Shown: positions 18,741-36,967 of the stretch, in pieces | Layout: the number at the start of each line of letters is the position of its first letter | Position numbering within the stretch: the first letter of the stretch is position 1 | DNA from: Thermoplasmata archaeon | Lineage (GTDB): Archaea > Thermoplasmatota > Penumbrarchaeia > JAEHCK01 | Length of the DNA stretch: 64,000 nucleotides | Reading direction: 5' to 3' | Assembly (NCBI GenBank): GCA_020696345.1 | Contig: JAEHCK010000010.1 | Span: forward strand, 1 to 64,000 | Notes under the pieces: model-generated | The model's input: the letters and a program-made list of their open reading frames with translations, nothing else | Told to the model about the DNA's origin: nothing | Databases searched by the model: none | Position numbers and translations under genes: made by a program

Positions 18741-18874
18741 ATTAACCACGAATTAACACGAATATACACGAATGTTTTCATATCATTCGTGTCGATTCGT
18801 GTGTATTCGTGGTTAAAAACCCTCAAATCAATCCGTGTAAATCCGCATAATCCGTGTCATCTGTGTTCTATTCC
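18741..18874. repeat. Left flanking hairpin repeat of the STAND array
   Basis: A near-perfect hairpin, TTAACCACGAATTAACACG... against ...ATTCGTGTGTATTCGTGGTTAA, with roughly 33-bp arms and a loop of about 9 bases (18742-18815). It is followed by AAAACCCTCAAATCAATCC and GTGTAAATCC-type units up to TTCTATTCC. The last 74 bases (18801-18874) recur almost unchanged at 36894-36967, downstream of the sixth STAND gene. Confidence 0.8.
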
Positions 18875-18972: not shown

Positions 18973-21780
18973 TTGGACGAGACTGACAAGAAAATCAAGG
19001 AACTTGAAGCCGAATTAGAGAGTTATATTAAAAAAGAAATGGAAGATTTGTTAGAATCAAAGACACTTAGTAAAAAATATGTTCTAAAGGAATTATTTAA
19101 AAGCAGTATGAAATGGATATCAGGTAAACTTCCAATTGATTTATATGAAATATTTGAGGAGCGGAAAAAACAATATGAAGAAAAAATGCAAAAGATTGTG
19201 AACACTATTTATTTAAAAAATATAGAGAAAATGCAAAGAAAGATCGATAAAAAAACAGGTAGAATTTATAAAAAAACTAAAAAAATTGATAAAAAAACTG
19301 ATGAAATTTTAGAAAGAGTTAAGAAAATTCCAATAAAGGGTGAAGGTGAACAATATTCGGTGTCAAAATCGAAGCCCCTCATCTTCATCCCCCACCCGTA
19401 CCCCGAGGCCCCCAACTTCACCGGCCGTGTGGCCGAAAAACAGATGCTCACCGACTGGCTGCTGCATGATCCCGAGCACCCATTACTGTCAATGGTCGCC
19501 ATCGGCGGCATGGGGAAGAGCGCGCTGGCGTGGCGGTGGCTGCAGGAAGAGGTGTTGGGGAAAGATAATCAGCTAGATGGGGTGGTGTGGTGGAGCTTTT
19601 ACGAGTCAAAGGCCGATTTCAGGGCCTTCCTGAACGAATTGGGAGACGGGGTATTCAAGGAAGACAGAGAGCACTACAAATCCCTAGCTGAGAGAGAGAA
19701 GCTGGATTATACTTTCAATTACTTCTCAAACAACAACTATTTGCTGATTTTTGACGGATTTGAGAGGACTTTGCGAGCATATATGGGTATATCCGCTTGC
19801 TATATTGGTGATGATTGCAAACTAGAAGATAGAGAAAGACACAGACAATGCGTTGATTCGAATCTTGCATGGTTTCTACGAGCATTAACTGCGATCAACT
19901 GCAATTCTAAAACACTACTTACCACCCGTTTGCATCCTTTGGATTTAGAAAGTTTTTTAGGAGTTAAAAAAGTAGTACTTGAAAAAATGAATCCCATGGA
20001 TGCTGTAGATTTTTTCCAAGCACAAGGTGTAAATGGTACAAGAGCAGAGATAGAAACAGCTTGTGAAAAGTATAATTTTTTACCTCTTTGCCTGCGATTG
20101 TTATCAGGGATGATTATCACACATCCAAAATATCGAAAAGACAAGGATATAAAATTAGCAGAGAATATTCCTGATTTGGATTTAACTAAAGTCGATGATA
20201 ACTTGCAAGACGCTATTAAATTTCAACACATTCTTCAATATTCATATGATGAATTAATGCCAGAAAATCAACAATTGATGTCAAATATTGCAGCATTCAG
20301 ATCTCCCATGGAATTTACGACTCTACGAGAAATACTTGCCCAAGATATCAATGTCAATGAATTTAGAGAGAAATTAGAGTGTTTTAAAAAACGGGGACTA
20401 CTCCAATTTAATGAAAGAACCGATAGTTATGATTTACACCCTGTTGTGGGAAGATATTGCTATGCTCGATTAATTGAACCTAAAAAAATACATGGAATAA
20501 TTACGAAATACTTAGAGGAAAAGGTAAACAAACAATTTGGACTTCGCATTCCCTTTAAATATCAGATACTTATGGACCCAGGACCTATGAAGATAGAAAA
20601 AATAGAAGATTTACAGCCAGTAATCGAATTATACTATCATTCTATTGGTTCAGAAAAGTATGAGGAGGCTTTCCTAATTCTTTATGATAGACTCCAGTCA
20701 CCTCTTTATTATGGCTTCGGTGCTTTTCATGAATTTTCCGAACTGCTGTTGGCATTTTTCGTTGATGGAATTGATAATCCACCTGATTTATGTGATGAGT
20801 ATGTAAGTTGGATTCTCAATTCTCTTGCAAACTCTTTCTCTCATTCTGGTCAGCCCCAGAAAGCATTACCTGTTTTCAAGCAAGCTATTAGAATTGCCGA
20901 AATAGTAAGAAAATGGGGAGATGTTGCAATTGGTTTAGGTAATCTTGCAAAAATGGCACAGGTTCCCATTGGAAATCTAGAATCCGCTGAATCTAATTTA
21001 CAGAAAAGAATTGTGATTGCAGGTAAAAATAACGACGAAATAAGCGTGGCTATGGCTAATTTAGAACTTGGAAGAATTTCTGCATACTTGGGGCGATTTG
21101 ATGAATCTATAAAAAAAATTTCAAAAGCACAAGTAGTACTTGATTCCTATGGTCCATTAAAAACAAATTCTGTTTCCCTTATTAGGGCTTATAAGTCAAA
21201 TTATGCTCTCCTAATGAACAATCCCCGGGACGGATTACGGTTCGCCCAGGAAGCCCTAGTTCACGCAAAAGAATGGGAGAAAGAATTTGCTAAACAAAAT
21301 ATTCTACAAGCTGGTGTGGCTAATTTAATACAATGTAATTTGCTCATCGGAGCCTCCTATATTGCAATGAAAGATGCTGCGAAAGTAGAAGCACCACTTC
21401 AGTTTGCCATCACCAAATGCCGCAAAATCAACATGGTCGACTACGAAGCCCCAATCCTACTCGAATTGGCAAAACTCCGTCACCTCCAGCAAAAAGACGA
21501 CGAAAGTCTGAATTTGGCCACCGAAGCCCTCGAGATCGCCAACCGCTGCGGCTACATCCTCCAGCAAGCCGACATCGAACAATTCCTCGGCGAGTATTAC
21601 AAGGATCAAGGTGATATGAAGAAAGCCAGGAAATATTTTGAAGACTGCATCGAGCACTGCACCCACTGCTGGAAGTACAACGAAAAGACCAAAGATTTCG
21701 ATTATGTCAAGAAGGACGAGAAGTGGTGGTACAAGCCGAGATATGAGATGGCAGTGAGGTTGTTGGAGGAATTACAATGA
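18973..21780 (+). CDS. STAND/NB-ARC NTPase with TPR repeats, coiled-coil N-terminus (array gene 1)
   Basis: 935 residues, TTG start with an AGGTGAGG ribosome binding site 6 bases ahead. Residues 1-125 are a charged, Lys/Glu-rich helical or coiled-coil region without an enzyme motif. The shared core begins with FIPHPYPEAPNFTGR (138-152), then Walker A AIGGMGKSALAWRW (176-189), WWSFYE (206-211) and Walker B YLLIFDGFER (256-265). An RNBS-B-like LLTTRLHP follows near 318, a GLPL-like LPLCLRLLSG, and DLHPVV at the place of the MHD motif (near 490). The C-terminal 350 residues are TPR-like helical pairs. Such proteins sense a ligand with the repeats, oligomerise through the NTPase and activate the N-terminal part. 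This member has no visible enzyme and may be an adaptor or structural partner. It overlaps gene 2 by 4 bases. Confidence 0.85.
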   Translation: MDETDKKIKELEAELESYIKKEMEDLLESKTLSKKYVLKELFKSSMKWISGKLPIDLYEIFEERKKQYEEKMQKIVNTIYLKNIEKMQRKIDKKTGRIYKKTKKIDKKTDEILERVKKIPIKGEGEQYSVSKSKPLIFIPHPYPEAPNFTGRVAEKQMLTDWLLHDPEHPLLSMVAIGGMGKSALAWRWLQEEVLGKDNQLDGVVWWSFYESKADFRAFLNELGDGVFKEDREHYKSLAEREKLDYTFNYFSNNNYLLIFDGFERTLRAYMGISACYIGDDCKLEDRERHRQCVDSNLAWFLRALTAINCNSKTLLTTRLHPLDLESFLGVKKVVLEKMNPMDAVDFFQAQGVNGTRAEIETACEKYNFLPLCLRLLSGMIITHPKYRKDKDIKLAENIPDLDLTKVDDNLQDAIKFQHILQYSYDELMPENQQLMSNIAAFRSPMEFTTLREILAQDINVNEFREKLECFKKRGLLQFNERTDSYDLHPVVGRYCYARLIEPKKIHGIITKYLEEKVNKQFGLRIPFKYQILMDPGPMKIEKIEDLQPVIELYYHSIGSEKYEEAFLILYDRLQSPLYYGFGAFHEFSELLLAFFVDGIDNPPDLCDEYVSWILNSLANSFSHSGQPQKALPVFKQAIRIAEIVRKWGDVAIGLGNLAKMAQVPIGNLESAESNLQKRIVIAGKNNDEISVAMANLELGRISAYLGRFDESIKKISKAQVVLDSYGPLKTNSVSLIRAYKSNYALLMNNPRDGLRFAQEALVHAKEWEKEFAKQNILQAGVANLIQCNLLIGASYIAMKDAAKVEAPLQFAITKCRKINMVDYEAPILLELAKLRHLQQKDDESLNLATEALEIANRCGYILQQADIEQFLGEYYKDQGDMKKARKYFEDCIEHCTHCWKYNEKTKDFDYVKKDEKWWYKPRYEMAVRLLEELQ

Positions 21781-24700
21781 CTAAGAAGAACCAAACCAAA
21801 TCATTTTCATTACCTTCAGATGAAAAAATCCTTAATGCAGTAAATCTCAAGGAATTGACAATTTATTATCAAAAATTACTTGAGATTGATACTCTTCCAA
21901 AAGGAAAAACAAAACAAAAATTATTAAAAAAAAGAGGGAAGAAAATTGAGAAAATTATTGCGCGGATTATCGAAATATATAATTGGAAAAATGTCGAATT
22001 AAATCATATAAAAGATGGTGTCGAAGTAGACATAATGGGTGATTATGGAAGAGATTTCTTTATCATGGAGTCAAAATGGTGGAAAGAACCAATTCAAAGC
22101 GGTGTACCGTTACGATTATCCGGAATGATACCGTTATATCCAGAAGCAAAAGGAATGGTTATTTCTCAAAAAGGATTAACTGATAACGCATTAACAGTTA
22201 TTTCGACATTAATGGTACAAAATCGAATAATAATATCTTTAGATAGAAATGATATCGAGGCAATCTTGAATGAAAAAATCAATTTTAATTATCTTATAGA
22301 TAAAAGACAATCTTTTGCAAGAAGAGAAAGAGCGCCGAATAAACCGGCAATATCTAAAGTAATTGAACAATTCGGGAAAGAAGGAGAATTTAATAAATAT
22401 CCTATTCCTGGGATTAAGAAATCTCACATCTTCATCCCTCACCCGTACCCAATCCAGGAGAAGTTCACTGGCAGAATTGCAATGCGAACGAAATTGACAA
22501 AATGGCTAACTTTAGATAAACATCCCGTTTTTATTATTCGTGCAATAGGAGGGATGGGTAAAAGCGCTCTATCTTGGATTTGGTTCAAACACGATGTATT
22601 TGGAGAATCCTTACCTGGATTTGAGGAAGAAACTGCAGAATCTGAATGTTGCCGATTGGACGAAGATCGCAAACCTGTTGGTGCAATATGGTGGTCGTTT
22701 TATGAAGAAAAAGCAAATTTTACACTGTTCCTTCAAAATACCGGTAAGAAAATTTTCGCAAATGATAAGGATTATAACGAATTAAGCGATCGGGATAAAT
22801 TAGATAGAATTTACGATTTCTTCCACTCCAATCCATTTCTTATAATCTTCGATGGAATCGAACGTGCTCTTCGGTCGTATAAAGAATTTTCTCCTTCATA
22901 TAAAAAACAAAAATCAACGATAGAAAGAAGGGACCGGGAGTGTATAGATCCAAACCTTGAAAAGTTCTTAGAACGCATGGCCGCGGAAGGAGGGCTCTCT
23001 AAGTTACTGATGACTACGAGAGTGACTCCGTTGATCCTGGACGGATTGGGTGGCGTGAAAGAGGAAGTTTTGGAAAGAATGGAAAAAGAAGAAGCTGTAA
23101 ATTTCTTCAGAAAATATGATGTAAAAAACATCCGATCTGAAATTGAAGGACTGTGCAAAGGGGTCAATTACATACCACTATGTTTGCGCATATTGGCTGG
23201 GGCCTTATCAACGAATCCAAAATATAATATAGACGTTACAAAACTGAGTGAAGACGTTGATCTTGCGAAAATTGCAAAGCAAAAGCACGATAAGAACAAA
23301 ATTAACCACATCCTCGAATTTTCAGAGAGATTTATCTCAGAAAAGAATGAACAACTAAAAGACTTAATGTGTTTGATCTCAGCGTTTAGAACGAAGGTAC
23401 CATATAACGCGCTAAAGGTCGTAACAGAGGATGAAGAACTAGAAGATCTTTCTGAAAATTTGAATGGGCTTATAGATAGGGGTCTGTTATTCTATGACCC
23501 TATATTAGTCAGTTATGAGATGCATCCGGAAGTGAAAGATTATTATTACGACATTATTGAAAATAAAGTCGAAATCCATCAGAAATTACGAAAATATTTT
23601 GCGAGCGTGCCTGAGCCTGAGAAAATAGAGACTATTGACGATTTAGAGCCAGTGATAGAGTTATACCACCATACAGTTAAGGCGGGTATGCACAAAGAGG
23701 CACTGATATTATTTTATGACAAATTGCATGATCATTTTCATTATAAATTTGGTGCGTATTTACTTACGATAGAACTTTTAACTGAATATGTAGAACAATT
23801 CGAGTATATTGAAGATATAAAATATTCGGAATTATTTGAAGATCTTACTAGAGCGTTCTCAATTATTGGGAAATTAAGGGACTCATTAAAATGGTCTCTT
23901 AGGGCTATTGATATCTGTGAGAAATCAAAAGATAAACAAAGACTTGCTGAAATTCTTATTTATCTTGCTTGGTCTCAGATTGCACTTGGAGATTTTGAGC
24001 AGGCTCTTAACTCTCTTGACAGAAGTTACAATATGAGTCAAAAATCTGGGATGAGGTATTTCTCTGGTTTAGCCCTTCAAGATAAAGCGCGCATCTTGAT
24101 GTATAAAGGGATGACAAAAAAAGTAATAGATTTATTCAAACAAGCATCGGATATATTTAATAAAATTACTAAAAATCCTAATAAAGACTATCGAAAGGGA
24201 AGAATTGAATGGGAACCGGATAAGGTTGAAAGATATGCACAAAGAAGACTTTTTTTCGAAAACTTAAGAATGGCTGAATTAGCACTTAACCTGGGAAATA
24301 AGGAAAAAGCTCTTGAAAATGGAAAAATGGCATTTGAAAAAATGAAAAACATGGAATTGTTTCAAAGAGATGAAGTACGAATGAATTGGATTATTGGATC
24401 TTCCCATATTACCTATGCAATAAAATGCTCAAGTAATGAATCGAGAAGTCATGTAAAAGAAGCAGAAAAATATCTTGAAACTGGGTATAAATATATTATT
24501 AAAAAAAATAGCGAATCAAAAGAACGAATATGTAAAGGTGCTTTGAGAGACTGTCGAAGTATCAATTTGGTTGAACTTGAAGCTGCTATATTACTTGAAA
24601 CTGCAAAACTCCGCCACCTCCAGGCCAGATCTCCTGACTCTCGACCTGCGACTCGTGACTCTCGGCTTAAAGAATCATTTACGTTAGTTTCTGAGGCCTT

Positions 24701-24950
24701 CGAAATCGCCAACCGATGCGGCTATGTCCTCCAACAAGCCGATATCCATCTATTCCTCGCCCACTACTACAAAGATCTTGACCACCTCGCCAAAGCCAAA
24801 GAGCACGCCGAATTCGCCAAGCTGCGGTCACACCAAATGATCGATGTGGAGACGGGGGATTATATTACGAAACTAGAGGAAACGGAATATAAGTACAAGC
24901 CGTGTTATGATAAGGCGGTGAAGTTGTTGAAAGAGTTGGAGGAGAAGTAA
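21777..24950 (+). CDS. STAND/NB-ARC NTPase with PD-(D/E)XK nuclease N-terminus (array gene 2)
   Basis: 1,057 residues, start ATG inside the ATGA overlap with gene 1. Residues 45-175 look like a restriction-endonuclease fold: a basic helix, then VEVDIMGDYGRDFFIMESKWW, in which D85 and E98-x-K100 fit the PD-(D/E)XK catalytic pattern. The shared core follows: FIPHPYPIQEKFTGR (218-233), Walker A GGMGKSA (258-264), WWSFYEEKANF, Walker B FLIIFDGIER, LLMTTRVTP, IPLCLRILAG and an MHD-position MHPEV. The TPR region is the most divergent of the six and holds an in-frame insert rich in D-S-R (24615-24668). Predicted to cleave DNA when the sensor is triggered. The next gene starts on its stop codon. Confidence 0.85.
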   Translation: MTKKNQTKSFSLPSDEKILNAVNLKELTIYYQKLLEIDTLPKGKTKQKLLKKRGKKIEKIIARIIEIYNWKNVELNHIKDGVEVDIMGDYGRDFFIMESKWWKEPIQSGVPLRLSGMIPLYPEAKGMVISQKGLTDNALTVISTLMVQNRIIISLDRNDIEAILNEKINFNYLIDKRQSFARRERAPNKPAISKVIEQFGKEGEFNKYPIPGIKKSHIFIPHPYPIQEKFTGRIAMRTKLTKWLTLDKHPVFIIRAIGGMGKSALSWIWFKHDVFGESLPGFEEETAESECCRLDEDRKPVGAIWWSFYEEKANFTLFLQNTGKKIFANDKDYNELSDRDKLDRIYDFFHSNPFLIIFDGIERALRSYKEFSPSYKKQKSTIERRDRECIDPNLEKFLERMAAEGGLSKLLMTTRVTPLILDGLGGVKEEVLERMEKEEAVNFFRKYDVKNIRSEIEGLCKGVNYIPLCLRILAGALSTNPKYNIDVTKLSEDVDLAKIAKQKHDKNKINHILEFSERFISEKNEQLKDLMCLISAFRTKVPYNALKVVTEDEELEDLSENLNGLIDRGLLFYDPILVSYEMHPEVKDYYYDIIENKVEIHQKLRKYFASVPEPEKIETIDDLEPVIELYHHTVKAGMHKEALILFYDKLHDHFHYKFGAYLLTIELLTEYVEQFEYIEDIKYSELFEDLTRAFSIIGKLRDSLKWSLRAIDICEKSKDKQRLAEILIYLAWSQIALGDFEQALNSLDRSYNMSQKSGMRYFSGLALQDKARILMYKGMTKKVIDLFKQASDIFNKITKNPNKDYRKGRIEWEPDKVERYAQRRLFFENLRMAELALNLGNKEKALENGKMAFEKMKNMELFQRDEVRMNWIIGSSHITYAIKCSSNESRSHVKEAEKYLETGYKYIIKKNSESKERICKGALRDCRSINLVELEAAILLETAKLRHLQARSPDSRPATRDSRLKESFTLVSEAFEIANRCGYVLQQADIHLFLAHYYKDLDHLAKAKEHAEFAKLRSHQMIDVETGDYITKLEETEYKYKPCYDKAVKLLKELEEK
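24615..24668. repeat. In-frame repeat insert in array gene 2
   Basis: Repeated GACTCTCGACC / GACTCGTGACTCTCGG steps add about 18 residues (ARSPDSRPATRDSRL...) between LRHLQ and the AFEIANRCGY helix. Array genes 1, 3 and 4 have only a few residues (QKDDES-like) here. Gene 6 has a shorter, visibly related string (ATCTCATGACCCTCGACTTG) at 36312-36338. Confidence 0.6.
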
Positions 24951-27853
24951 TGAAAGTAATGATCAGTAGTACAGTCAAAGATCTCGTAGACCTCAGAGAT
25001 CGCCTATACGATTATCTCAAAGAAAAGGGGCACGAACCCTGGATCAGCGGAAAACCTGGCTTTCCGACTCATCTTGATAATGATGCTATGACGTGTTGTG
25101 TGAAAGCAGCAGAAAGTTCTGATTATTTCATCCTGATTTTAGACCGGCATTCTGGTCTAACTTATAAAAAGACTGGAACAAGTATAACTGAAGCGGAATT
25201 CAATGCGGCATCCAATAGCAATAAACCAAGATCAATTTTTGTAAGAGAACCTGTAGATTCTCAATGTAAAATATTCCGTCAAATGTCTGAAGACCAACGT
25301 AAGGACATCAAATGGGATTGCGACCACGGAGTCTATGACTTCTATGATCGTCTTCAACATCTTGAGAATGTACCATGGCGGCATCTATTCTCTGACTATA
25401 ATAATATTATTGAAAACCTTAAGGCTGATTTTCAGAAATTTGAAAGACGAAAGATATTGTTGGATAAATCCTTCACCCCTCACCCTTACCATGAAGACCC
25501 ACATTTTACTGGACGTACGACAGAAAGAAAAATGCTCAACGACTGGCTTATCAGAGATAAAGACAAACCTCTATTATCCCTTGTTGGGATTGGAGGGATG
25601 GGGAAGAGCGCCTTGGCCTGGAGATGGTTACAGGAGGAAATTATAGACAAGGGAATGGAATTTGATGGAATCGTATGGTGGAGTTTTTATGAGAAGGAGA
25701 TGACATTCTCAAGTTTCATTCGCAGTTTTATAATTCATAAATGGGGTGAAAAAAGCCCTTTACTCCAAATGGCTACTAGTGAACAGATCAACAAGGTGTT
25801 CGAGGAATTTCAAAAAAACAACTATCTTATTATTCTGGATGGAGTTGAAAGAATACTCAAGGCCTATTTCGGACTTGGCTCACCATACCAGAAGGATGAT
25901 GATAAAACCCTCAGTTCAGACAAGGATTTTCGGGCCTGTATCGACCCGAGCGCAGGGAATTTTCTCCAGAAACTTGCCAGTGATAGTGTAAAGAGTAAAA
26001 CCCTTCTAACAACACGCCTCCATCCTAAGGCACTGGATACCACAGCAGGATGTTTGCGATACAACCTCACATCGTTTTCACGGGAGGATGGTGAAGAATT
26101 CTTCAGACGCCAGGGAGTTAAAGGAACTAGAGCCGAGATAGAACGTGAGTGCGAAAAATACGGTTTTCATCCACTATCTTTACGTTTACTTTCGGGTATG
26201 ATCGTGAGTGATCCCGAATGTAAAGGCGACATTGCAAAATGCGAGATTCTTGGCCGGATAGAAGATATGGCTCCGAAAGAGCATAATATTTTGGAACTTT
26301 CCTATAACGCTCTCGATGATGAAAAAAAGGAGTTTGTAAGTTCACTTGCTGCATTTCGTTCCCCAATGGACTTTGAGGCCATAAAATCAATTGCAAAGTA
26401 TGAAAACCATAAAGAACTCATTTCTGCACTTATTGAGGTTGTGAACAGAGGCATTCTCTTCCAGCGAAAAGAGAAGGATAAAAAGGGTAAGGAAATTACG
26501 ATTTACGACCTCCACCCAATAGTCCGTTCCTACTGCTACGTCAGGTTGCGAGATAAAGAGGGCGTGCATTCCCAGCTACGGGATTATTTTGCGAGCGTGC
26601 CTGAGCCTGAGAAGATCGAGAGTATCGACGACCTCGCCCCTGTCATCGAGCTCTACCACCATACCGTACGTGCGGGGAGGTATGAAGAAGCTATCAAATT
26701 GTACAAGGACAGACTAAGTTCACCCTTATATTTCATGTCAGGTTCATATCAAACCCAAATCGAATTGCTCTCTGCGATTTTTCCTGAGGATTATGATAAA
26801 CCTCCAAAGGATTTGCGAGAAGATAATATTGCTTGGGCTCTTAATTCTCTTGCGAACTCCTACTCCATCTCCGGCCAGCCCCGCCGTGCCGTGCTGATGT
26901 TCGAGATGATAAAGAAGATAGATATTAAGAATTTGCAAAACCAGGATGCAAGATTCATCTTTACGGATGATAGATTTGTGATACCTAAAGACCACACTAT
27001 GAGTACAAATTATTTAGAACAATGTGCGATTAGCCTCGGCAACCTCGCCGAGGACCAGTTAAAGATCGGCGACCTGGAGTCTGTGGAGTACAACCTGCAA
27101 CGAGCTATTAATATTTGCGAGGAAATTGATGAAGAAAGATACAAAGCTATGTGGCAAGAGATTCTTGGGAAGAATTTTGCGTATATTGGAAATTTCATTG
27201 ATTCTGCCAAAGAATTGGATATTGCTTTTGAAATTCAAAAACGATATAATGCTCCACAGGGACAATGTATAGTAACAATTAGCCGCTCCCTCCGCGCCCT
27301 CCTCATGGACGACCCAAAAGAAGCACTTAAATGTGCTCAACAAGCCCTCGAATTTGCGAAAAAAGAAGAGAAAGAAAGAGGCGAACCAACTATTAGAGAC
27401 TTCATCCGAGCCAACTGGCTCATCGGAGCCTCCTATGTTGCAATGGGCAAGGTAGAAGAGGCAGAAGCACCATTTCAATTTGCCATCACCGAATGCCGAA
27501 AGATCAACATGGTCGATCACGAAGCCCCTATCCTCCTCGAACTCGCCAAACTCCGCCACCTCCAGCAAAAAGACAACGAATCCCTTCCCCTCGCCACCGA
27601 GGCCCTCGAGATCGCCAACCGCTGCGGCTATGTCCTCCAGCAGGCCGACATCCACTTTTTCCTCGCACAATATTACAAAGACCTCGGCGACCTCGCCAAA
27701 GCCCACGAGCACGCCGAACTCGCGAAACTACGAAGCCACCAGATGATCGATGTTAAGACCGGAGATTATATTACGAAGCCAGAAGATACCAAGTGGATGT
27801 ACAGGCCATGTTATGATAAGGCTGTGAAAATGTTGGTGGAATTGGAGGCGTAG
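24950..27853 (+). CDS. STAND/NB-ARC NTPase with DUF4062 N-terminus (array gene 3)
   Basis: 967 residues; its ATG shares one base with the stop of gene 2. Residues 1-155 are a DUF4062 domain: MKVMISSTVKDLVDLRDRL, a mid strand YFILILDRHSG and an AEFNAA helix; the fold is related to TIR-like and nucleoside-handling domains. The shared core follows: TPHPYHEDPHFTGR, Walker A GGMGKSA (215-221), WWSFYEKEMTF, Walker B NYLIILDGVER, LLTTRLHPKALD, HPLSLRLLSG and an MHD-position DLHPIVRSYCY. C-terminal TPR-like repeats contain several GC-rich blocks nearly identical in DNA to genes 4-6. The final part carries HQMIDVKTGDYITKPED and YRPCYDKAV, shared with the other members. Activity of the N-terminal domain is unproven. 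Confidence 0.85.
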   Translation: MKVMISSTVKDLVDLRDRLYDYLKEKGHEPWISGKPGFPTHLDNDAMTCCVKAAESSDYFILILDRHSGLTYKKTGTSITEAEFNAASNSNKPRSIFVREPVDSQCKIFRQMSEDQRKDIKWDCDHGVYDFYDRLQHLENVPWRHLFSDYNNIIENLKADFQKFERRKILLDKSFTPHPYHEDPHFTGRTTERKMLNDWLIRDKDKPLLSLVGIGGMGKSALAWRWLQEEIIDKGMEFDGIVWWSFYEKEMTFSSFIRSFIIHKWGEKSPLLQMATSEQINKVFEEFQKNNYLIILDGVERILKAYFGLGSPYQKDDDKTLSSDKDFRACIDPSAGNFLQKLASDSVKSKTLLTTRLHPKALDTTAGCLRYNLTSFSREDGEEFFRRQGVKGTRAEIERECEKYGFHPLSLRLLSGMIVSDPECKGDIAKCEILGRIEDMAPKEHNILELSYNALDDEKKEFVSSLAAFRSPMDFEAIKSIAKYENHKELISALIEVVNRGILFQRKEKDKKGKEITIYDLHPIVRSYCYVRLRDKEGVHSQLRDYFASVPEPEKIESIDDLAPVIELYHHTVRAGRYEEAIKLYKDRLSSPLYFMSGSYQTQIELLSAIFPEDYDKPPKDLREDNIAWALNSLANSYSISGQPRRAVLMFEMIKKIDIKNLQNQDARFIFTDDRFVIPKDHTMSTNYLEQCAISLGNLAEDQLKIGDLESVEYNLQRAINICEEIDEERYKAMWQEILGKNFAYIGNFIDSAKELDIAFEIQKRYNAPQGQCIVTISRSLRALLMDDPKEALKCAQQALEFAKKEEKERGEPTIRDFIRANWLIGASYVAMGKVEEAEAPFQFAITECRKINMVDHEAPILLELAKLRHLQQKDNESLPLATEALEIANRCGYVLQQADIHFFLAQYYKDLGDLAKAHEHAELAKLRSHQMIDVKTGDYITKPEDTKWMYRPCYDKAVKMLVELEA

Positions 27854-27855
27854 AA

Positions 27856-30723
27856 ATGACTGAAGAAGTAACCAAAATCAAGATTTTCGTCGCCTCACCT
27901 GGCGATGTGAATAACGAGCGAAAAAGGGTGAAAAAGGTTATAGAAGAATTAAATAAAACGGTATGTCCATCAAGAAGCCTTACCCTGGAATATAAGGGTT
28001 GGGAGGAAGTCGTACCAGATATTGGAAAACCTGGTCAAAGGGCAATTGATGAACAAATAGGACCATATGATATTTTCATTGGAATAATGTGGAAAAAGTT
28101 TGGGCATCCAACATTAGGCGCGGGTTCTGGAACTGAACATGAATTTAATATGGCATATAAAAAGAGAAAGAAGTTTGGCGAACCGCGAATCTTATTCTAT
28201 TTCAGCCAAAAACCTTCTACTCCAAAAACAGAGAAAGAAACGGAACAGTGGGGTAAAGTAATCAAGTTTAAAAAGAAAGTCCAGAAATTGGGTCTTACGA
28301 AAGATTACAAAAACCCTAGCGATTTCGAAAAAATTGTTCGAGAACATTTAACTAAAATAGTTGCCGATTGGGGTAAAGAACCAACTATAGTAGAGAAAAA
28401 AAAACCAGCAACTCTAGTAACATTCATCCCCCACCCGTACCCCGAAGCACCGAACTTCACCGGACGTGTTACAGAGAAGAAGATGCTCACCGACTGGTTA
28501 ATGCATGACCCCGGGCACCCACTTCTATCCATGGTCGCAATCGGCGGCATGGGTAAGTCCGCGCTGGCGTGGCGGTGGCTGCAAGAAGAGGTTTTAAAGC
28601 ACGGGAATGGGGAAGATGGAATCGGGAATGGGGAAAAGATAGAGCTTGAGGGCGTAGTGTGGTGGAGCTTTTACGAGAAGGGGATGACTTTTGACTGTTT
28701 TATACGAGATTTTGCAGCAAACCTATGGGGTGATGATAGCCCTAAACTTAAACGATCGATGTCCGAGTTATACAACGATGTGTACCTTGAATTTCAGCAG
28801 AATAATTATCTAATTATACTCGATGGCGTTGAGAGAATCCTTCGGGCATATACAGGACTTGGATCACCCTATCAAGGCGACGATGTAAAAGAAGACCCAA
28901 ATCAAGATTTCCGTGGATGTATCGATCCCAATGCAGATTCCTTCTTTCAACATCTGTCCACATCCATAAATAAATCAAAAACATTGCTAACGACAAGATT
29001 ACATCCAAAGGCACTGGATACGGTTGATGGTTGTTTAAGAAAAGATCTCGAAAGCATGGACAAAGAAGATGCAGTTGAATTTTTCCATGCCCAGGGAGTC
29101 AAAGGAACCAGAGTGGAGATCCAACTGGCTTGCGATCCTTACGGATACCACCCGTTGAAATTACGACTTCTATCTGGTCTGATACTTGAGGATAAAGAGA
29201 ATCCAGGCGATTGCAGTCAAAGTAAATATTGTAAAATTGGTGATGTAGCACCAAAGAAACATTACATCATGGAAATCTCTTACAATGCCTTGGACAAGAA
29301 AAAGCAGAATTTCATCAGCAGTTTGGCAGCCTTTAGAGCGTCAATGGAATACCCTGCGATCAAGGGAATAAGTAAGTTCAAATCGAAAAAAGATTTGGAT
29401 GTGGTATTAACAGAATTGGTGAACCGTGGTTTATTATTTTGGGATAAAGAAAAAAATAGATACGACCTCCACCCAATTGTCCGCTCCTACTGTTACGATA
29501 GGTTGCGAGATAAAGAGGACGTACATTCCCAGTTGCGGGATTATTTTGCGAGTGTACCTGAGCCTGAGAAAATTGAGTCCCTCGACGACCTCGCACCCGT
29601 CATCGAACTCTACCACCACACCGTGGGTGCGGGGAGGTATGATGAGGCTTATAATCTAATGCGAGAAAGATTATTACCAGATCAGCTTCATTTTCAATTT
29701 GGAGCTTATTCTCTCTCAATCGAAATTATGGGTGCGTTTTTTAAGGACATTGAGTATAGAAAAGCAAAAATTAAAGACGAAGGAATAATTGCTGTTTTAT
29801 ATAATGGACTAGCCGTTTCTTATTCCCTCGCCGGCCAACCCCGCCGTGCGGTGCCGCTGTTCGAGAAACAGATTGCAATTAGCGAAAAGCGGGAAGTCGC
29901 TATCGGCCTCGGCAACCTCGCCGACGACCAATTAAATATCGGCGACCTAGAATCTGCGGAGGCTAACCTGCGAGGAAAAATTAAAATTGTTTACGAAATT
30001 AAAGATGAACCTCATAAAGCTAGAAGTCATCACGAACTTGGACGAGTTCTTTCTTTTTTAGGGGAATTCATCAAATCTGAATGCGAACTTAATTCCGCTA
30101 TGGATATATTTAAATCTATAGAACATATACAAATGATTGGATTAGTTTGGGCCTATCGCTCCCTCCCCGCCCTACTCATGGACGATCCCACCGAGGCCCT
30201 TAAATGTGCGAACAAAGCCCTCGAATTTGCGAAAAAAGACGAAGAAACTGATTCGAGAACCCCAAGAGACTTCATTCAAGACCATTATTTCCTTGGTGCA
30301 TCCCATGTTGCATTAAAAGACATTGCGAAAGCCGAAGAAAACCTACAATTCGCAATCACCGAATGCCGCAAGATCAATATGGTCGACCACGAAGCATTAA
30401 TACTTTTGGAACTCGCCAAACTCCGCCACCTCCAGAAGAGAGATGAAGAATCAATAAAACTTACGAATGAGGGCCTCGAAATCGCCAACCGCTGCAGCTA
30501 TGTCCTCCAGCAGGCCGACATCCACCTCTTCCTCGCACAATACCACAAAGACCTCGGCGACCTCGCCAAAGCCCGCGAGCACGCCGAACTCGCAAAACTG
30601 CGAAGCCACCAAATGATCGATGTGGAGACAGGGGATTATATTACGAAGCCAGAAAATACCAAATATAAGTATAAACCATGTTATGATAAGGCGGTGCAAT
30701 TATTAGAAGGATTAACTTCGTGA
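27856..30723 (+). CDS. STAND/NB-ARC NTPase with second DUF4062-type N-terminus (array gene 4)
   Basis: 955 residues, starting 2 bases after gene 3 with GGAGG upstream. Residues 1-175 begin KIKIFVASPGDVNNERKRV, the typical opening of DUF4062 proteins, with a YDIFIGIMWKKFG strand and a TEHEFNMAY helix; it differs clearly from genes 3 and 6. The shared core follows: FIPHPYPEAPNFTGR, Walker A GGMGKSA (230-236), WWSFYEKGMTF, Walker B NYLIILDGVER, LLTTRLHPKALD, HPLKLRLLSG and DLHPIVRSYCY. A low-complexity insert (GNGEDGIGNGE) lies between Walker A and WWSFYE. The region around 29090-29470 is highly similar in DNA to gene 6, while the 5' parts are unrelated. Confidence 0.85.
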   Translation: MTEEVTKIKIFVASPGDVNNERKRVKKVIEELNKTVCPSRSLTLEYKGWEEVVPDIGKPGQRAIDEQIGPYDIFIGIMWKKFGHPTLGAGSGTEHEFNMAYKKRKKFGEPRILFYFSQKPSTPKTEKETEQWGKVIKFKKKVQKLGLTKDYKNPSDFEKIVREHLTKIVADWGKEPTIVEKKKPATLVTFIPHPYPEAPNFTGRVTEKKMLTDWLMHDPGHPLLSMVAIGGMGKSALAWRWLQEEVLKHGNGEDGIGNGEKIELEGVVWWSFYEKGMTFDCFIRDFAANLWGDDSPKLKRSMSELYNDVYLEFQQNNYLIILDGVERILRAYTGLGSPYQGDDVKEDPNQDFRGCIDPNADSFFQHLSTSINKSKTLLTTRLHPKALDTVDGCLRKDLESMDKEDAVEFFHAQGVKGTRVEIQLACDPYGYHPLKLRLLSGLILEDKENPGDCSQSKYCKIGDVAPKKHYIMEISYNALDKKKQNFISSLAAFRASMEYPAIKGISKFKSKKDLDVVLTELVNRGLLFWDKEKNRYDLHPIVRSYCYDRLRDKEDVHSQLRDYFASVPEPEKIESLDDLAPVIELYHHTVGAGRYDEAYNLMRERLLPDQLHFQFGAYSLSIEIMGAFFKDIEYRKAKIKDEGIIAVLYNGLAVSYSLAGQPRRAVPLFEKQIAISEKREVAIGLGNLADDQLNIGDLESAEANLRGKIKIVYEIKDEPHKARSHHELGRVLSFLGEFIKSECELNSAMDIFKSIEHIQMIGLVWAYRSLPALLMDDPTEALKCANKALEFAKKDEETDSRTPRDFIQDHYFLGASHVALKDIAKAEENLQFAITECRKINMVDHEALILLELAKLRHLQKRDEESIKLTNEGLEIANRCSYVLQQADIHLFLAQYHKDLGDLAKAREHAELAKLRSHQMIDVETGDYITKPENTKYKYKPCYDKAVQLLEGLTS
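28598..28640. repeat. In-frame simple-repeat insert in array gene 4
   Basis: Two copies of CGGGAATGGGGAA add about 12 residues (HGNGEDGIGNGEK) between LQEEVLK and LEGVVWWSFYE. Gene 1 has LQEEVLGKDNQLDGVVWWSF at the same place. The repeat is complementary to the CCCATTCTTCCC type at the left end of the window. Confidence 0.6.
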
Positions 30724-30732
30724 GGATATTAG

Positions 30733-33700
30733 ATGTCAAATCGACCATATATTTCAAAAAAAGTTGTAGATAAACTTCTAGTAGACTGTATGCATCGGTG
30801 TTGCCTTTGCCCAGAACATCATAATCTTGTCGATAAACACCATATAGAATTATTGTCCGATGGAGGCCCAAATACAGAAAAAAATCTCATTGCTGTTTGC
30901 CCAACTTGCCATGCAAAAATCCATAGAAGAAAGGGGCAATATAACAAACGACAGTTAATTATGTATAAGATGTGGTGGGTTAATTTCTGTAAAATGGGAT
31001 TACCACTAGATGCTAGAATTGCTGTGGCTCCATGGATAAAGTATAATGAACAAATTAATAAAATAGAATCAAGACCTCTAACTTTCCTCGCTCACCCGTA
31101 TTCCCTACAATCTAAATTTACCGGTCGTATTGAGGAGAGAAAAAACCTTACCCATTGGTTATGTCATGATAACGACCATCCCGTTATATCATTAACTGCT
31201 ATTGGCGGTATGGGTAAAAGCGCCCTAAGCTGGGTATGGTTGAATCTTGATGTGCTTAGAGAAAAAATACCAGGATTAGAAGTAGAATATATCCAGGCCA
31301 CTAAAAAATGCAATATACCTGAGGAACACCGACCGGATGGGGTATTTCAATGGTCCTTTTATCTTGGAGAATTAAGTTTTTCCAAGTTCCTAATTGAAGC
31401 ATGTAAATACACAGGTGGCGATCCAGAAATCCCTGCAGACCAAGAGAAGGTAACCGATAACGACAGGCTTCGAGTATTGATTCAACGAATGAGAGAGAAT
31501 CGATACCTATTTATTCTTGATGGATTTGAGCGTCTGCTGAGAGCCTATGGAAGCCAAGATGCCGCACTTCTCAGAGAAAAGGACGTTAGCGAATATTCTG
31601 AAGATGAGAGGCGTTGTTCAGATCCGAATGTGTCAAGCTTCTTGATGGAAATCGTAGCTGGAATTAAAAGCAAGGTACTTTTAACAACAAGATTGGTCCC
31701 ATACGAGCTTCAGGGGAGGCCAGGGTTCAAGGATTATTCGATGATCGGATTGAACAAAGAAGATGCAGTCACATTCTTGAAATCCATGGACATTTCGGGT
31801 CTGGATCGGGAATTACTTGCTGTAGCCAAGGTATATGACAACCATCCTCTCAGTCTGAGCCATTTGGTTAATGTGATCAGAAGGAAAAGCCTGGATGGAA
31901 AAAATGACATTTCCTTAGCTCCTGAAATTGATGTGACAATGGACCTTAGGGGAAAAAACCAGCAGATACTGGAGAAATCCTTTGAAATTCTGCCGGAAAA
32001 TTTGAAAAAGACTCTAATGAAAATTTCCGCTGTTAAAGGTTCAATAAGCTATGATTTTTTTAAATTGGTAAATGACGGTCTGACAGATAGGGATCTGGGA
32101 AATATTCTGCCCACATTGATGGAGATGCAATGGATATTCTGGGATCGGAATAAAGGACTGGTGAATTTCCATCCATTAGCACGTAGATATTGTTACCAAC
32201 AAATGAAAGAAGAACAAAGAATAGAAGTCCATGAAACCCTACGAAAATATTGGGAAGAGAGAGCTAATGAGAAACTTCCGATGATTGCAGATATTTTAAG
32301 CGAAGAAGAATTGCGAGCCATTGAATTTGAACAGAGTAAATTGATTGCTAAATCAGATGCGAAGAAAAAGGATGAGTTGAAGATAACAATGCCAGAATTG
32401 GAAGCTGGTTTCGATTCGATTAGAGAAATGCTTAAACATATACGAGTTGATAAAAGAATCCCCCTCCTAGACATGATTTTAGGCCTAGATTCCGTTCCCA
32501 CCCACTTAAAAAAAATTAAAGTGGTATCCCTCGACGACCTCGCCCCAGTCATCGAGCTCTACCACCACACGGTAAGAGCGGGGAGGTATGATGAAAGTGC
32601 GACTCTACTGCGAGATCGACTTGCTTATCCTATTTATTTTCAATTTGGAGCTTATCATACAGAAATTGAATTATTGCGAGACCTATTTGTAGATGGTGAG
32701 AATAAACCTCCAAAGCTTTCATTAAAAGCCTGGCAGGCATATATTTTAAACGAACTTGCGGCTTGTTACACCCTCTCCGGCCAGCCCCGCCGTGCCGTAC
32801 TGCTGTTCGAACAGTATATCCAGATTCATGCGAACATAGTACGAAAGGAAATTCCAACATATAATTGGAAAGATATTACAACATATCCAAAGAGGGAACA
32901 TTCAAGACAGTTTTCATATAATTTAGGAGAAAACGCCATCGGCCTCGGAAACCTCGCCGGCGACCAGATGAAGATCGCCGACCTGGAGTCTGCGGAGGCC
33001 AACCTGCAACGAGCTATTAAGTTGAGTGTTGAAATTGAAAATAAAGAAAATCAGGGGAGATGGAACAATGAATTTGGAAGAACGTTAGCATATTTAGGCG
33101 ATTTTGAAAAATGTGAAAGAAAATTCAATATTGCAAATGATTTATTTGAAAAATTGAAAAATTATCAATCTATAGGGGTCGTCTGGGCCTACCGCTCCTT
33201 CCGCGCCCTCCTCATGGGCAACCCCAAGGAAGCTTTAAAATGTGCGAACAAAGCCCTCGAATTTGCAAAAAAATGGGAAAAAGAAGAACATAGGAATACA
33301 AGAGACTTTATCCGATACAACTGGCTCATCGGAGCCTCCAATGTTGCGATGGGAGATACCGCCCAAGCCGAGGGACCATTGAACTTTGCCATCACCGAAT
33401 GCCACAAGATCAACCTCGTCGAACTTGAAGCTGCGATACTTTTAGAAATTGCAAAACTCGAATACCTAAAAATGAAACCGCAGATTAATGCTGATAAACA
33501 CGGATCAGATAATCTCCGTGTTAATCTGCGTTCATCGGCGGTTAAATTAGCCGAAGAAGCCCTCGAGATCGCCAACCGCTGCGGCTACATCATCCAGCAA
33601 GCCGACATCCACCTCTTCCTCGCACAATATTACAAAGACCTCGGCGACCTCACCAAAGCCCGCGAGCACGCCGAACTCGGCAAACTCCGAAGCCATCAAA

Positions 33701-33816
33701 TGATCGATGTGGAAACAGGGGATTACATCGATAAACCAGAGGATACTAGGTATAAGTACAAGCCATGCTATGACAACGCAGTCAAATTAATTTCTGAGTT
33801 GGGTGATTCAAAATGA
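30733..33816 (+). CDS. STAND/NB-ARC NTPase with HNH nuclease N-terminus (array gene 5)
   Basis: 1,027 residues; starts 10 bases after gene 4, with GAGGAT upstream. Residues 15-70 are an HNH nuclease: zinc pairs C23-x2-C26 and C56-x2-C59, catalytic DKHHIE (H36, H37), N51 and CHAKIH (H60, H64). The core has FLAHPYSLQSKFTGR, Walker A GGMGKSA (158-164), a variant QWSFYLGELSF, Walker B YLFILDGFER, LLTTRLVP and FHPLARRYCYQQ at the MHD position. A helical insert of about 70 residues follows before the TPR part. The TPR region carries a palindromic in-frame insert (33470-33545). Predicted to cut DNA or RNA on activation. Overlaps gene 6 by 4 bases. Confidence 0.87.
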   Translation: MSNRPYISKKVVDKLLVDCMHRCCLCPEHHNLVDKHHIELLSDGGPNTEKNLIAVCPTCHAKIHRRKGQYNKRQLIMYKMWWVNFCKMGLPLDARIAVAPWIKYNEQINKIESRPLTFLAHPYSLQSKFTGRIEERKNLTHWLCHDNDHPVISLTAIGGMGKSALSWVWLNLDVLREKIPGLEVEYIQATKKCNIPEEHRPDGVFQWSFYLGELSFSKFLIEACKYTGGDPEIPADQEKVTDNDRLRVLIQRMRENRYLFILDGFERLLRAYGSQDAALLREKDVSEYSEDERRCSDPNVSSFLMEIVAGIKSKVLLTTRLVPYELQGRPGFKDYSMIGLNKEDAVTFLKSMDISGLDRELLAVAKVYDNHPLSLSHLVNVIRRKSLDGKNDISLAPEIDVTMDLRGKNQQILEKSFEILPENLKKTLMKISAVKGSISYDFFKLVNDGLTDRDLGNILPTLMEMQWIFWDRNKGLVNFHPLARRYCYQQMKEEQRIEVHETLRKYWEERANEKLPMIADILSEEELRAIEFEQSKLIAKSDAKKKDELKITMPELEAGFDSIREMLKHIRVDKRIPLLDMILGLDSVPTHLKKIKVVSLDDLAPVIELYHHTVRAGRYDESATLLRDRLAYPIYFQFGAYHTEIELLRDLFVDGENKPPKLSLKAWQAYILNELAACYTLSGQPRRAVLLFEQYIQIHANIVRKEIPTYNWKDITTYPKREHSRQFSYNLGENAIGLGNLAGDQMKIADLESAEANLQRAIKLSVEIENKENQGRWNNEFGRTLAYLGDFEKCERKFNIANDLFEKLKNYQSIGVVWAYRSFRALLMGNPKEALKCANKALEFAKKWEKEEHRNTRDFIRYNWLIGASNVAMGDTAQAEGPLNFAITECHKINLVELEAAILLEIAKLEYLKMKPQINADKHGSDNLRVNLRSSAVKLAEEALEIANRCGYIIQQADIHLFLAQYYKDLGDLTKAREHAELGKLRSHQMIDVETGDYIDKPEDTRYKYKPCYDNAVKLISELGDSK
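33470..33545. repeat. Palindromic repeat element inserted in frame in array gene 5
   Basis: An imperfect hairpin: CCGCAGATTAATGCTG..AACACGGA against TCCGTGTTAATCTGCG..CGGCGG. About 22 of 27 positions pair by my reading. It codes for about 25 residues (KPQINADKHGSDNLRVNLRS) between LEYLK and LAEEALEIANRCGY. The AATCCGTGT / ATCTGCG vocabulary matches the intergenic repeats flanking the array. Confidence 0.65.
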
Positions 33817-36620
33817 AAGTATTTATTAGTTCAACATTTCTCGATCTTCGTGAATATAGGGAAAAAGTCATTGAAGCATTACGAAATTTTGGAGAGCAAT
33901 ATAAAGCAATGGAAATATTTGGTGCCAGATCTGAAGAACCTAAAACAGTCTCACTAAAAGAAGTAAAAAATTGTGATGTTTTTATTGGCATTTATGCCCA
34001 CAGGTATGGGTGGGTTCCAAAAAATGATGAATATTCTATAACCCACCAAGAATATGAAATAGCAAAAAAAGAAAATAAAAAGGTCTTATGTTACTTCATA
34101 GAAGAAGACTATCCCTGGCTACCTAAATGGATGGATGAAGGGGGAGAAAAGAAAAAATTGGAAAAATTCAAACAAAAAGTAATGGAGGTTTATACTCCGG
34201 ATTATTTTACAACCTCTGAGAGTTTGATACCAAAAATATCTCGTGATCTAGCTAGAACCATGATAGAATTGGGAAAGGTTCAAGCTGAAGACTTCGATCT
34301 TTTTCCTCACCCCCCCGCACCATATTTCGCACATCCGTATCCACTACAAGAAAATTTTACTGGCCGTAATAAAGAACGTCAACAACTTACGGAATGGTTG
34401 AAAAATGACCCACGACCCATGTTTGCGTATGTTGCAATTGGCGGCATGGGCAAATCCGCATTAACATGGTATTGGTTACAGGAAGATATTATTAAAAAAG
34501 GTTTGGCACCTGAAGGTATCATTTGGTGGTCATTCTATGATGAAGAATCTAGCTTTGAAAAATTCCTCTTCAGCACTATTAAATATGCGAGTGGAGGAAA
34601 AATTAACCCCTCAACTATTAAATCTGTTAGGGAAAAAATTGATACACTTTACAATCTTCTTTATCAAAAACGATATCTAATTGTTCTGGATGGTTTGGAA
34701 CGGTTATTAAGGGCTTATGCGGGTTTGGGATCTCCATACCAGGGTGACGAATTTAAAAAAGAAAAAGATCAAACATTTCGCTCTTGTATTGATCCAAATG
34801 CTTCTTGGTTCTTAAAAACAATGGTAACGGGTTATCCACAATCCAAGATATTGTTTACCAGCAGATTATTTCCAAAGGAACTCGATGGTTTGGCGGGTTA
34901 TAATAAAATTGAATTGAAAAGTATGAACCCAGATGATGCGGTAGAGTTTTTCCACCTCCAAGGGGTCAAAGGAACACGAGCCGAAATACAAGTAGCTTGC
35001 GAACCTTATGGATACCATCCCCTAAAGTTACGACTTCTATCTGGTCTGATACTTGAGGAAAAAGAGAACCCTGGTGATTGCAGTCAAAGTAAATACTGTG
35101 AAATTGGCGACGTGGCACCAAAAGAACATTATATCATGGAGATTTCATACAATGCTTTGGACAAGAAAAAGCAAAATTTCATTAGCAGTTTGGCTGCCTT
35201 TAGAACACCAATGGATTACCCTGCGATCAAGGCAATAAGCAAGTTCAAATCAAAAAAGGAATTGGATGGGGCATTAACAGAATTGGTGAACCGTGGATTA
35301 TTATTCTGGGATAAAGAGAAAAATAGATACGACCTCCACCCCATAGTCCGTTCCTACTGCTATGGCCGTCTTATGGATAAAGAGGGTGTGCATTCACAAT
35401 TAATTGATTATTTTAATGCTGTCCCAAAACCCTCGAAAATCGAGAGCATAGACGACCTCTCTCCAGTCATCGAACTCTATCACCACACCGTAGGTGCGGG
35501 GAGGTATGATGAAGCTTGGAGTTTATTCTACGAGAGATTGAACCAACCTACATATTATCAATTCGGTGCCTACCAATTAAGGATAGAATTAATGAATGCT
35601 ATGTTCCCAAATGGTTACGATAAACCTAAGCTAACTAAAGAGGATGCCCTTGCTTGGACATATAACGGCTTAGCCAATTCCTACTCCCTCTCCGGCCAGC
35701 CCCGCCGTGCCGTGCAAGTTTGGTCAATAGCAATGCCTATTGCTAAAAAACTTGGAGAAAAACGAAATTATGCAGTCGGCCTCGGCAACCTCGCCCTCCA
35801 GCACAAGGTAATTGGCGACCTGGAGTCTGCGGAGGCCAACCTGCGGCGAGCTATAAAAGTCGATCAAGAAATTGATGATAAAGACTGGGAATCTGAAAAT
35901 CGTCGCTGGCTTGGTCAATTATTGGCATATAAATGTTCATTCAAAGAATCGAATAAAGAATTACTAATTGCGATGAAATATTATAAGAAGGAATCTCAAT
36001 CTTCAGATATTTGTCATACCTATGAATCACGCTCCCTCCGCGCCCTCCTCATGGACGATCCAACCGAAGCCCTGCGATGTGCTCAAAAAGCCCTCGAATT
36101 TGCGAAAAAATGGGAAAAAGAAGAATATCGCTTAGAAATAGACTATATCCATGTTAACTGGCTCATCGGTGCATCCTATGTTGCGATGAAAAAACCTAAT
36201 GAAGCGGAGAAGCCTTTAACCTTTGCGATTACCGAATGCCGCAAGATCAATCTTGTCGAATTAGAAGCCTCAATCCTTCTAGAAATGGCAAAGTTAAGAT
36301 ATCTCCAAACGAAATCTCATGACCCTCGACTTGCCGAATCTCTGAAACTTGCAACTGAGGCATTAGAGATCGCCAACCGCTGCTCCTACATCCTCCAGGA
36401 AACGGACATACTCAACTTCTTAGCCGAATACTGGTTAGACATGGGTAAAACGGATGAGGCTATCAAAGAAGCCCGTCTAGCCCTTGATCGCTCTACTCAA
36501 ATGATCGATGTTGAAACCGGGGAATATGTCGTCAAGAAAGATCCAAAGTATTATTACGTTCCAGGTCACAAAAAAGCACAAGCATTTCTGGAGAAACATT
36601 TCCATGGAGAGATGTCCTGA
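33813..36620 (+). CDS. STAND/NB-ARC NTPase with third DUF4062 N-terminus (array gene 6)
   Basis: 935 residues, ATG within the ATGA overlap with gene 5. Residues 1-150 are DUF4062: VFISSTFLDLREYREKV, a CDVFIGIYAHRYGWVP strand and an HQEYEIAKKENK helix. Of the three DUF4062 members this is closest to the classical form. The core follows: FAHPYPLQENFTGR, Walker A GGMGKSA (210-216), WWSFYDEESSF, Walker B YLIVLDGLER, ILFTSRLFPKELD (TSR instead of TTR), HPLKLRLLSG and DLHPIVRSYCY. The TPR region ends with a shortened, more divergent tail (DVETGEYVVKKDPKYYYV). Last gene of the array; the flanking repeat begins about 120 bases downstream. Confidence 0.86.
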   Translation: MKVFISSTFLDLREYREKVIEALRNFGEQYKAMEIFGARSEEPKTVSLKEVKNCDVFIGIYAHRYGWVPKNDEYSITHQEYEIAKKENKKVLCYFIEEDYPWLPKWMDEGGEKKKLEKFKQKVMEVYTPDYFTTSESLIPKISRDLARTMIELGKVQAEDFDLFPHPPAPYFAHPYPLQENFTGRNKERQQLTEWLKNDPRPMFAYVAIGGMGKSALTWYWLQEDIIKKGLAPEGIIWWSFYDEESSFEKFLFSTIKYASGGKINPSTIKSVREKIDTLYNLLYQKRYLIVLDGLERLLRAYAGLGSPYQGDEFKKEKDQTFRSCIDPNASWFLKTMVTGYPQSKILFTSRLFPKELDGLAGYNKIELKSMNPDDAVEFFHLQGVKGTRAEIQVACEPYGYHPLKLRLLSGLILEEKENPGDCSQSKYCEIGDVAPKEHYIMEISYNALDKKKQNFISSLAAFRTPMDYPAIKAISKFKSKKELDGALTELVNRGLLFWDKEKNRYDLHPIVRSYCYGRLMDKEGVHSQLIDYFNAVPKPSKIESIDDLSPVIELYHHTVGAGRYDEAWSLFYERLNQPTYYQFGAYQLRIELMNAMFPNGYDKPKLTKEDALAWTYNGLANSYSLSGQPRRAVQVWSIAMPIAKKLGEKRNYAVGLGNLALQHKVIGDLESAEANLRRAIKVDQEIDDKDWESENRRWLGQLLAYKCSFKESNKELLIAMKYYKKESQSSDICHTYESRSLRALLMDDPTEALRCAQKALEFAKKWEKEEYRLEIDYIHVNWLIGASYVAMKKPNEAEKPLTFAITECRKINLVELEASILLEMAKLRYLQTKSHDPRLAESLKLATEALEIANRCSYILQETDILNFLAEYWLDMGKTDEAIKEARLALDRSTQMIDVETGEYVVKKDPKYYYVPGHKKAQAFLEKHFHGEMS

Positions 36621-36744: not shown

Positions 36745-36967
36745 TATTAACCACGAATTAACACGCTAATGTATTTATTGAGGTATTAGAAAAGTAAAAA
36801 GTAAAATCTTAAAAGTGAAAATTCCAATTTTTATTTCGACTTTTACCTTTTACATTTTGCCTTTTCAATTAATCAACCATAAAATCAAGCTATGTGTATT
36901 CGTGGTTAAAAACCCTCAAATCGATCCGTGTAAATCCGTCTAATCTGTGTCATCCGTGTTCTATTCC
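36745..36967. repeat. Right flanking repeat of the STAND array
   Basis: Begins ATTAACCACGAATTAACACG like the left copy at 18741. A block of about 120 bases, itself an imperfect AAAAGTAAAA / TTTTACCTTTT hairpin, then replaces the hairpin middle. It resumes with GTGTATTCGTGGTTAAAAAC and runs to TTCTATTCC, matching 18801-18874 with only a few differences. The gap 36621-37065 holds nothing else recognisable. Confidence 0.75.

Follow-up and report, generated by a model that had tools for sequence, protein, structure and literature searches.

The DNA analysed here (the window) is a stretch of 64,000 nucleotides from a Thermoplasmata archaeon (contig JAEHCK010000010.1, assembly GCA_020696345.1). On its plus strand, positions 18973-36620 are occupied by six intact STAND/NB-ARC open reading frames arranged head to tail, which we call genes A to F (Table 1). 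These encode proteins of 935, 1057, 967, 955, 1027 and 935 aa, and the junctions between them are, in order, −4, −1, +2, +9 and −4 bases. A Shine-Dalgarno-like motif was found upstream of every start, including the TTG start of gene A, which has AGGTGAGG upstream, and genes A to F are likely to be read as one transcript. An earlier sequence-only reading of this DNA had proposed six consecutive plus-strand STAND paralogues with close junctions and one probable transcript, and this description holds. Scans for sigma-70-like promoters and terminators returned no more than expected by chance; archaeal promoters are outside the models of these scans.

Table 1 Genes of the array, their parts and the patches that they have in common.
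Feature	Position	Strand	Parts, or partner positions	Residues, identity or dS
Gene A: STAND, helical/coiled N-terminus	18973..21780	+	N-term 18973-19383; NBD-WHD 19384-20616; TPR sensor 20617-21777	
Gene B: probable Mrr-like PD-(D/E)XK N-terminus	21777..24950	+	N-term 21777-22430; NBD-WHD 22431-23648; TPR sensor 23649-24947	E58, D85, E98-x-K100
Gene C: DUF4062 TIR-like predicted NADase N-terminus	24950..27853	+	N-term 24950-25471; NBD-WHD 25472-26638; TPR sensor 26639-27850	catalytic Glu83
Gene D: second DUF4062 type	27856..30723	+	N-term 27856-28422; NBD-WHD 28423-29595; TPR sensor 29596-30720	Glu96; PDC-S60 match
Gene E: HNH N-terminus	30733..33816	+	N-term 30733-31083; NBD-WHD (separate lineage) 31084-32544; TPR sensor 32545-33813	C24, H36/H37, N51, C56, H60, H64
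Gene F: third DUF4062	33813..36620	+	N-term 33813-34322; NBD-WHD 34323-35462; TPR sensor 35463-36617	Glu80; AlphaFold mean pLDDT 91.6
Mosaic patch, start of D NBD	28423..28592	+	A 19384-19553	86% DNA identity; dS 0.73
Mosaic patch, D NBD/WHD	29051..29650	+	F 34918-35517	82% DNA, ~90% protein identity; dS 0.74
Homogenised C-terminal end of D sensor	30464..30702	+	B 24692-24920; C; E 33552-33789	dS 0.35-0.71
Mosaic patch, A sensor	21342..21576	+	C 27418-27652	83.5% DNA identity; dS 0.64

The nearest gene downstream of the array lies on the minus strand and the plus-strand genes upstream stop more than 1.2 kb away, so that the unit consists of the six genes without a separate effector gene. Downstream are genes for Cbf5 and an archaeal CMP kinase, both above NCBIfam equivalog cut-offs, and upstream are HdrA/FlpD-like and MTHFR genes; judged by these matches, the neighbourhood is archaeal. 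The array sits between housekeeping genes and not in a defence island, with a PADLOC candidate match in only one of the eight flanking window genes scanned. The host genome (4.97 Mb, 272 contigs, 6.2% estimated contamination) is the sole member of its order among the genomes searched, and no second strain with the array was found among them. An assembly artefact was ruled out, as the six cores differ widely (approximately 30-65% protein identity) and are flanked by archaeal housekeeping genes. A 75-bp repeat, 93% identical, lies on both sides of the array (18800-18874 and 36893-36967); these copies were ruled out as insertion ends, since the genome holds approximately 20 copies and the repeats are therefore not markers of a mobile element.

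Elsewhere in the window, all on the minus strand, are a gene for a Fic-like protein with similarity to protein adenylyltransferases, possibly a toxin or modifier (62793-63746), a 576-aa protein with an ATPase domain of the bacterial DnaA type (E 6.4e-68) in this archaeal contig, whose N-terminal half has no assigned family (46195-47922), and an archaeal ATPase_2 protein with similarity to the PADLOC candidates PDC-S01/S27 (177-1394).

Proteins A to F can be aligned from the HPYP..FTGR motif to the C-terminus, through the NBD, winged-helix and TPR parts. The Walker A motif GGMGKSA is invariant, and all six keep the Walker B motif [IV][FL]DGxER, the sensor Arg in T[TS]R and, where MHD would stand, an HP motif. 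Some of the motifs that had been described as common to the set are looser than claimed: A and B have FDGxER, E has QWSFYL, B, E and F have TTRVTP, TTRLVP and TSRLFP, and B and E have MHP and FHP. The Pfam NB-ARC profile scored above its cut-off in C and F, narrowly below it in A, and was weaker or absent in B, D and E.

An AlphaFold model of F built from a 71-sequence alignment (pTM 0.84) consists of a TIR-like domain, an NBD, a winged helix and a long TPR superhelix, in agreement with the C-terminal TPR-like sensor of the sequence-only reading. Its best match in the PDB was PH0952 (E 1.2e−17), followed by Avs3, the apoptosome protein APAF-1, CED-4 and plant resistosomes. Global TM-scores were modest (0.17-0.35 by query length) because the domain arrangement differs from that of these structures. 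A scan of public species genomes identified 159 relatives with the same core, which places it far beyond chance. By their motifs and modelled fold, proteins A to F belong to the STAND/NB-ARC (AP-ATPase) switches, and ligand-driven ADP/ATP exchange and oligomerisation are predicted.

N-terminal domains and comparison with known systems

The N-termini of C, D and F all matched Pfam DUF4062 above its cut-off (E 7.6e−15, 1.3e−5 and 2.9e−25, respectively) and keep the catalytic Glu of the [ST]xTxxE motif. DUF4062 is a TIR-like NADase which is active in antiphage defence, and E97 is required in KpSwz, one of the DUF4062 proteins of that study, which has no STAND core (PMC13174449, preprint). The N-terminus of F aligns with KpSwz at E 2.7e−8, with Glu80 opposite position 97, an Ala in the solved chain; we infer that this Ala is the E97A mutant of the KpSwz structure, with a numbering offset. 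The N-termini of C, D and F are predicted to be three different TIR-like NADases. That of D is a distinct DUF4062 type, which matched the PADLOC candidate PDC-S60 over residues 5-178 of a 906-aa profile (E 3.8e−47).

The N-terminus of E matched HNH (PF01844, E 2.3e−5, 24.9 bits against a cut-off of 21.4), with the zinc Cys and the catalytic His/Asn residues kept. For B there was a weak match to Mrr_cat that fell short of the cut-off of 21 bits (17.6 bits, E 0.0042) and an E..D..ExK motif is present, making it a probable Mrr-like nuclease; its comparison with solved structures gave chance matches only, and a single-sequence AlphaFold model (pLDDT 35) was uninformative. The N-terminus of A is helical and matched no Pfam family. 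Of the N-termini that had been read from the sequence, the three DUF4062 types and the HNH domain are thus borne out by profiles, the PD-(D/E)XK nuclease of B is weakly so and the N-terminus of A, which had been read as a coiled coil, is helical/coiled. Viral contigs gave no match, whether searched with the alignment as a whole or with the N-termini of A and B.

The closest solved structure raises the question of whether the array might control gene expression or stress responses, in the manner of MalT or AfsR, and not immunity. PH0952 of Pyrococcus horikoshii (PDB 6mfv) is a MalT homologue whose closed ADP form is held by TPR-NBD contacts (PMC6468293), and weak NCBIfam similarity to the TPR/STAND parts of AfsR and MalT was also seen. 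However, none of the six proteins showed a DNA-binding domain, their N-termini belong to NADase or nuclease classes and their catalytic residues are intact, and TIR, hydrolase and nuclease domains are found on relatives. We regard a regulatory array as very unlikely.

PH0952 resembles proteins A to F in its NBD-winged helix-TPR fold and archaeal origin, but is not described as part of an effector array and has no TIR-like or nuclease set (PMC6468293). The Avs (AVAST) proteins, including Avs3, the second-best fold match, likewise have an N-terminal effector, a STAND core and a TPR-like sensor; in comparison, proteins A to F are shorter and are six paralogues in one operon, and none matched a PADLOC Avs profile. 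Swarozyc (KpSwz; PMC13174449) resembles C, D and F in its DUF4062 TIR-like domain with a catalytic Glu. KpSwz, however, uses a small auxiliary HTH/winged domain to sense portal, while in C, D and F the DUF4062 domain is followed by a STAND-TPR switch and the Swarozyc layout of DUF4062 with a portal-binding HTH/winged domain is absent. PDC-S60 is a single-protein candidate whose match to D is limited to the N-terminal 170 residues and leaves out the remainder. PADLOC has no model for any of the whole proteins, and this match to D is the one PADLOC match among the six. By these profile and domain-layout tests, the array falls outside the Avs, Swarozyc and PDC-S60 systems.

The AP-ATPase/STAND conflict systems of Kaur et al. 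(PMC7159879, PMC8195603) also combine a STAND NTPase and TPRs with exchangeable effector or adaptor domains; in the portions of these papers available to us, there was no array of six STAND paralogues with recombination between them. Modular STAND conflict proteins are already known, and it is a prokaryotic STAND array such as this six-gene operon, with modules recombining between paralogues, that was not found in the open-access literature searched.

Relatives in other genomes

We examined 80 loci out of the 159 found. The N-termini of these relatives include TIR, DUF4062, α/β-hydrolase, nucleosidase, phosphoesterase, transmembrane and unassigned helical domains, indicating that effector exchange is a property of this family as a whole. 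The relatives are single genes: a second intact core gene was present in none of the 39 loci flanked by 3 kb or more on each side, and two core genes were found only at two Methanophagales loci (L024 and L026). Two further apparent neighbour pairs (L045 and L097) were rejected, as they look like single genes split by frameshifts. No other array was found in searches covering 390 genomes from the same phylum, 58 genomes from the Methanophagales class and 298 from a class of Chloroflexota; the two large searches among these scored only two candidates per genome, so that small arrays could escape there. The size of the array is unusual, as the sequence-only reading had supposed.

Invariance between strains had been named as something that would speak against a role in defence. 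Among the Methanophagales, which offer the closest case for comparison, two genomes (L026 and L032) have flanks of 95-97% DNA identity and different STAND cassettes between them. The cassette of the former (L026:198-7560) contains a DUF4062-STAND gene, a standalone SIR2 gene and a fusion of 1264 aa with the order nSTAND1-DUF4062-NB-ARC-TPR; that of the latter (L032:7287-11577) contains a different DUF4062-STAND gene and a standalone Mrr nuclease gene. As read from these two sequences, such cassette exchange is typical of a defence site.

Decayed fragments of the family were found on three other contigs of the host genome (C149:9883-10122, L010; C46:8239-8461, L166; C165:25464-25589, L165), and a genome of the same class has a C-terminal remnant. 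These decayed copies and the remnant suggest gene birth and loss. Contig C165 also carries, within L165:4472-11300, another STAND-TPR gene of 1042 aa, the core of which is not of the A-F family, followed by two further genes, one of them for a TPR protein of 738 aa.

Mosaic genes, one sensor clade and three ATPase lineages

Within the patches which the genes have in common (Table 1), dS was 0.35-0.75, whereas most stretches outside them are saturated or nearly so. Closest partners change along the genes; that of D is A where the NBD begins (92%), C in the middle, F at residues 403-540 (up to 92%), C again at 543-600, E in the TPR and both C and E at the end. A column-permutation test gave p = 0.0002. 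Recombination or gene conversion can produce such patchy low dS, which constraint on the protein sequence cannot, and genes A to F are mosaics formed by recombination or gene conversion between paralogues.

The patches also bear on whether the genes are neutral tandem duplicates, decaying by-products of recombination, as the decayed fragments elsewhere in the genome and a dispersed repeat inside at least one sensor loop might suggest. Intact frames and purifying selection go most of the way to refuting this explanation. Each of the six genes has an open frame of 935-1057 codons with translation signals, dN/dS in most patches is about 0.1 to 0.2, and ATPase and effector residues are kept. Of the explanations considered here we give neutral duplication the least credence.

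The repeat in question is a dispersed intergenic repeat (ccgcagattaatgctgataaacacgga...), which apparently lies in frame in gene E (33469-33537) as a sensor loop insertion (PQINADKHGSDNLRVNLRSS); copies similar to this insert are present on several contigs. The same sensor loop in gene B holds a low-complexity insert of another kind (24624-24680).

In a tree of the sensors, the six sensors and that of a relative from a Methanomassiliicoccales archaeon (Thermoplasmatota; L092) form one clade (support 100/100). The NBDs fall in three places, with C, D and F beside Methanophagales and Altiarchaeales, A and B together, and E beside L092; B is a long branch and its placement is the least sure. A single NBD clade was rejected (AU test: p = 1.6e−83). 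In the first half of its NBD, L092 has 62-71% identity with E; it then follows D, at 64-72% identity, through the first part of the sensor, and on this sequence pattern is a natural chimera of an E-type NBD and a D-type sensor.

These trees bear on the proposal of a multi-specificity sensor set, in which each of the six proteins would recognise a different viral product and the differences in effector would be incidental. Characterised antiviral STANDs do bind conserved phage proteins through C-terminal sensors (PMC10907252), identities in TPR1 among the six are just 25-54%, and a mid-TPR segment (F 687-740) is the most variable part of the sensor, both within the six and among relatives. Against this, the sensors form one clade while the NBDs form three, the last ~190 sensor residues are strongly conserved within the array and homogenised by recombination, and the greatest difference is in the effector, as every N-terminus differs. 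The proposal, which had been made from the sequence, is not supported in that form, and we now think it rather unlikely, if still a serious contender.

It had also been suggested that the proteins co-assemble. In a hetero-oligomeric hub, all six would join one wheel through the common core and mix NADase and nuclease effectors, a possibility with which the tight coupling of the genes in one likely transcript, the common C-terminal end of the sensors and the invariant core motifs are consistent. However, the NBDs of E, A/B and C/D/F are 31-48% identical to one another, which makes mixed interfaces between the three ATPase lineages less likely, and the relatives, as single genes, presumably form homo-oligomers. 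A hub of this kind seems improbable to us.

A candidate antiviral battery

The reading that we prefer, to which we give about an even chance on the strength of the domains and of the cassette variation in Methanophagales, among other things, is that the A-F operon is an antiviral abortive-infection battery of NLR-like STAND switches. We infer an activation cycle in which each resting protein would be a monomer with ADP bound, kept closed by its TPR superhelix in the manner of PH0952, until a viral product was bound by the TPR sensor. The NB-ARC would then swap ADP for ATP and the protein would oligomerise, bringing the N-terminal effectors together, and the cell would die or arrest through loss of NAD+ or DNA damage. 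The effectors available for joint use would be three TIR-like NADases (C, D and F), an HNH nuclease (E), a probable Mrr-type nuclease (B) and the helical module of A.

Because the sensors are common and the effectors variable, related triggers with several kill modes are favoured over six unrelated specificities. With one sensor family kept similar by recombination, related triggers would probably fire several kill modes, and no single viral inhibitor could then block all of them. The variable mid-TPR segment could nevertheless leave room for different triggers. Diversification of the array proceeds by recombination between paralogues and by re-pairing of ATPase/effector modules with sensor modules.

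Tandem NLR paralogues which diversify by recombination and module re-pairing are familiar from the NLR clusters of plants, although those have LRR repeats, while the array described here has TPRs and is a prokaryotic operon. As a more tentative proposal, which we hold to be doubtful, the array may be a prokaryotic NLR cluster that builds its receptors combinatorially: recombination within and between lineages would re-pair ATPase/effector heads with a shared sensor, and one class of viral trigger would set off the NADase arms and the nuclease arms at once, perhaps within mixed assemblies.

With its six N-termini, its re-pairing of modules and the evident recombination between paralogues, the operon displays in an archaeon the NLR-cluster mode of evolution which is familiar in plants and fungi. 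Its relatives, like most known prokaryotic antiviral STANDs, stand alone, in contrast to these six genes with six N-termini. The array may serve to test whether having diverse effectors on one common sensor gives protection from viral anti-effector proteins, and as a natural set for mapping the TPR surfaces which set the range of triggers.
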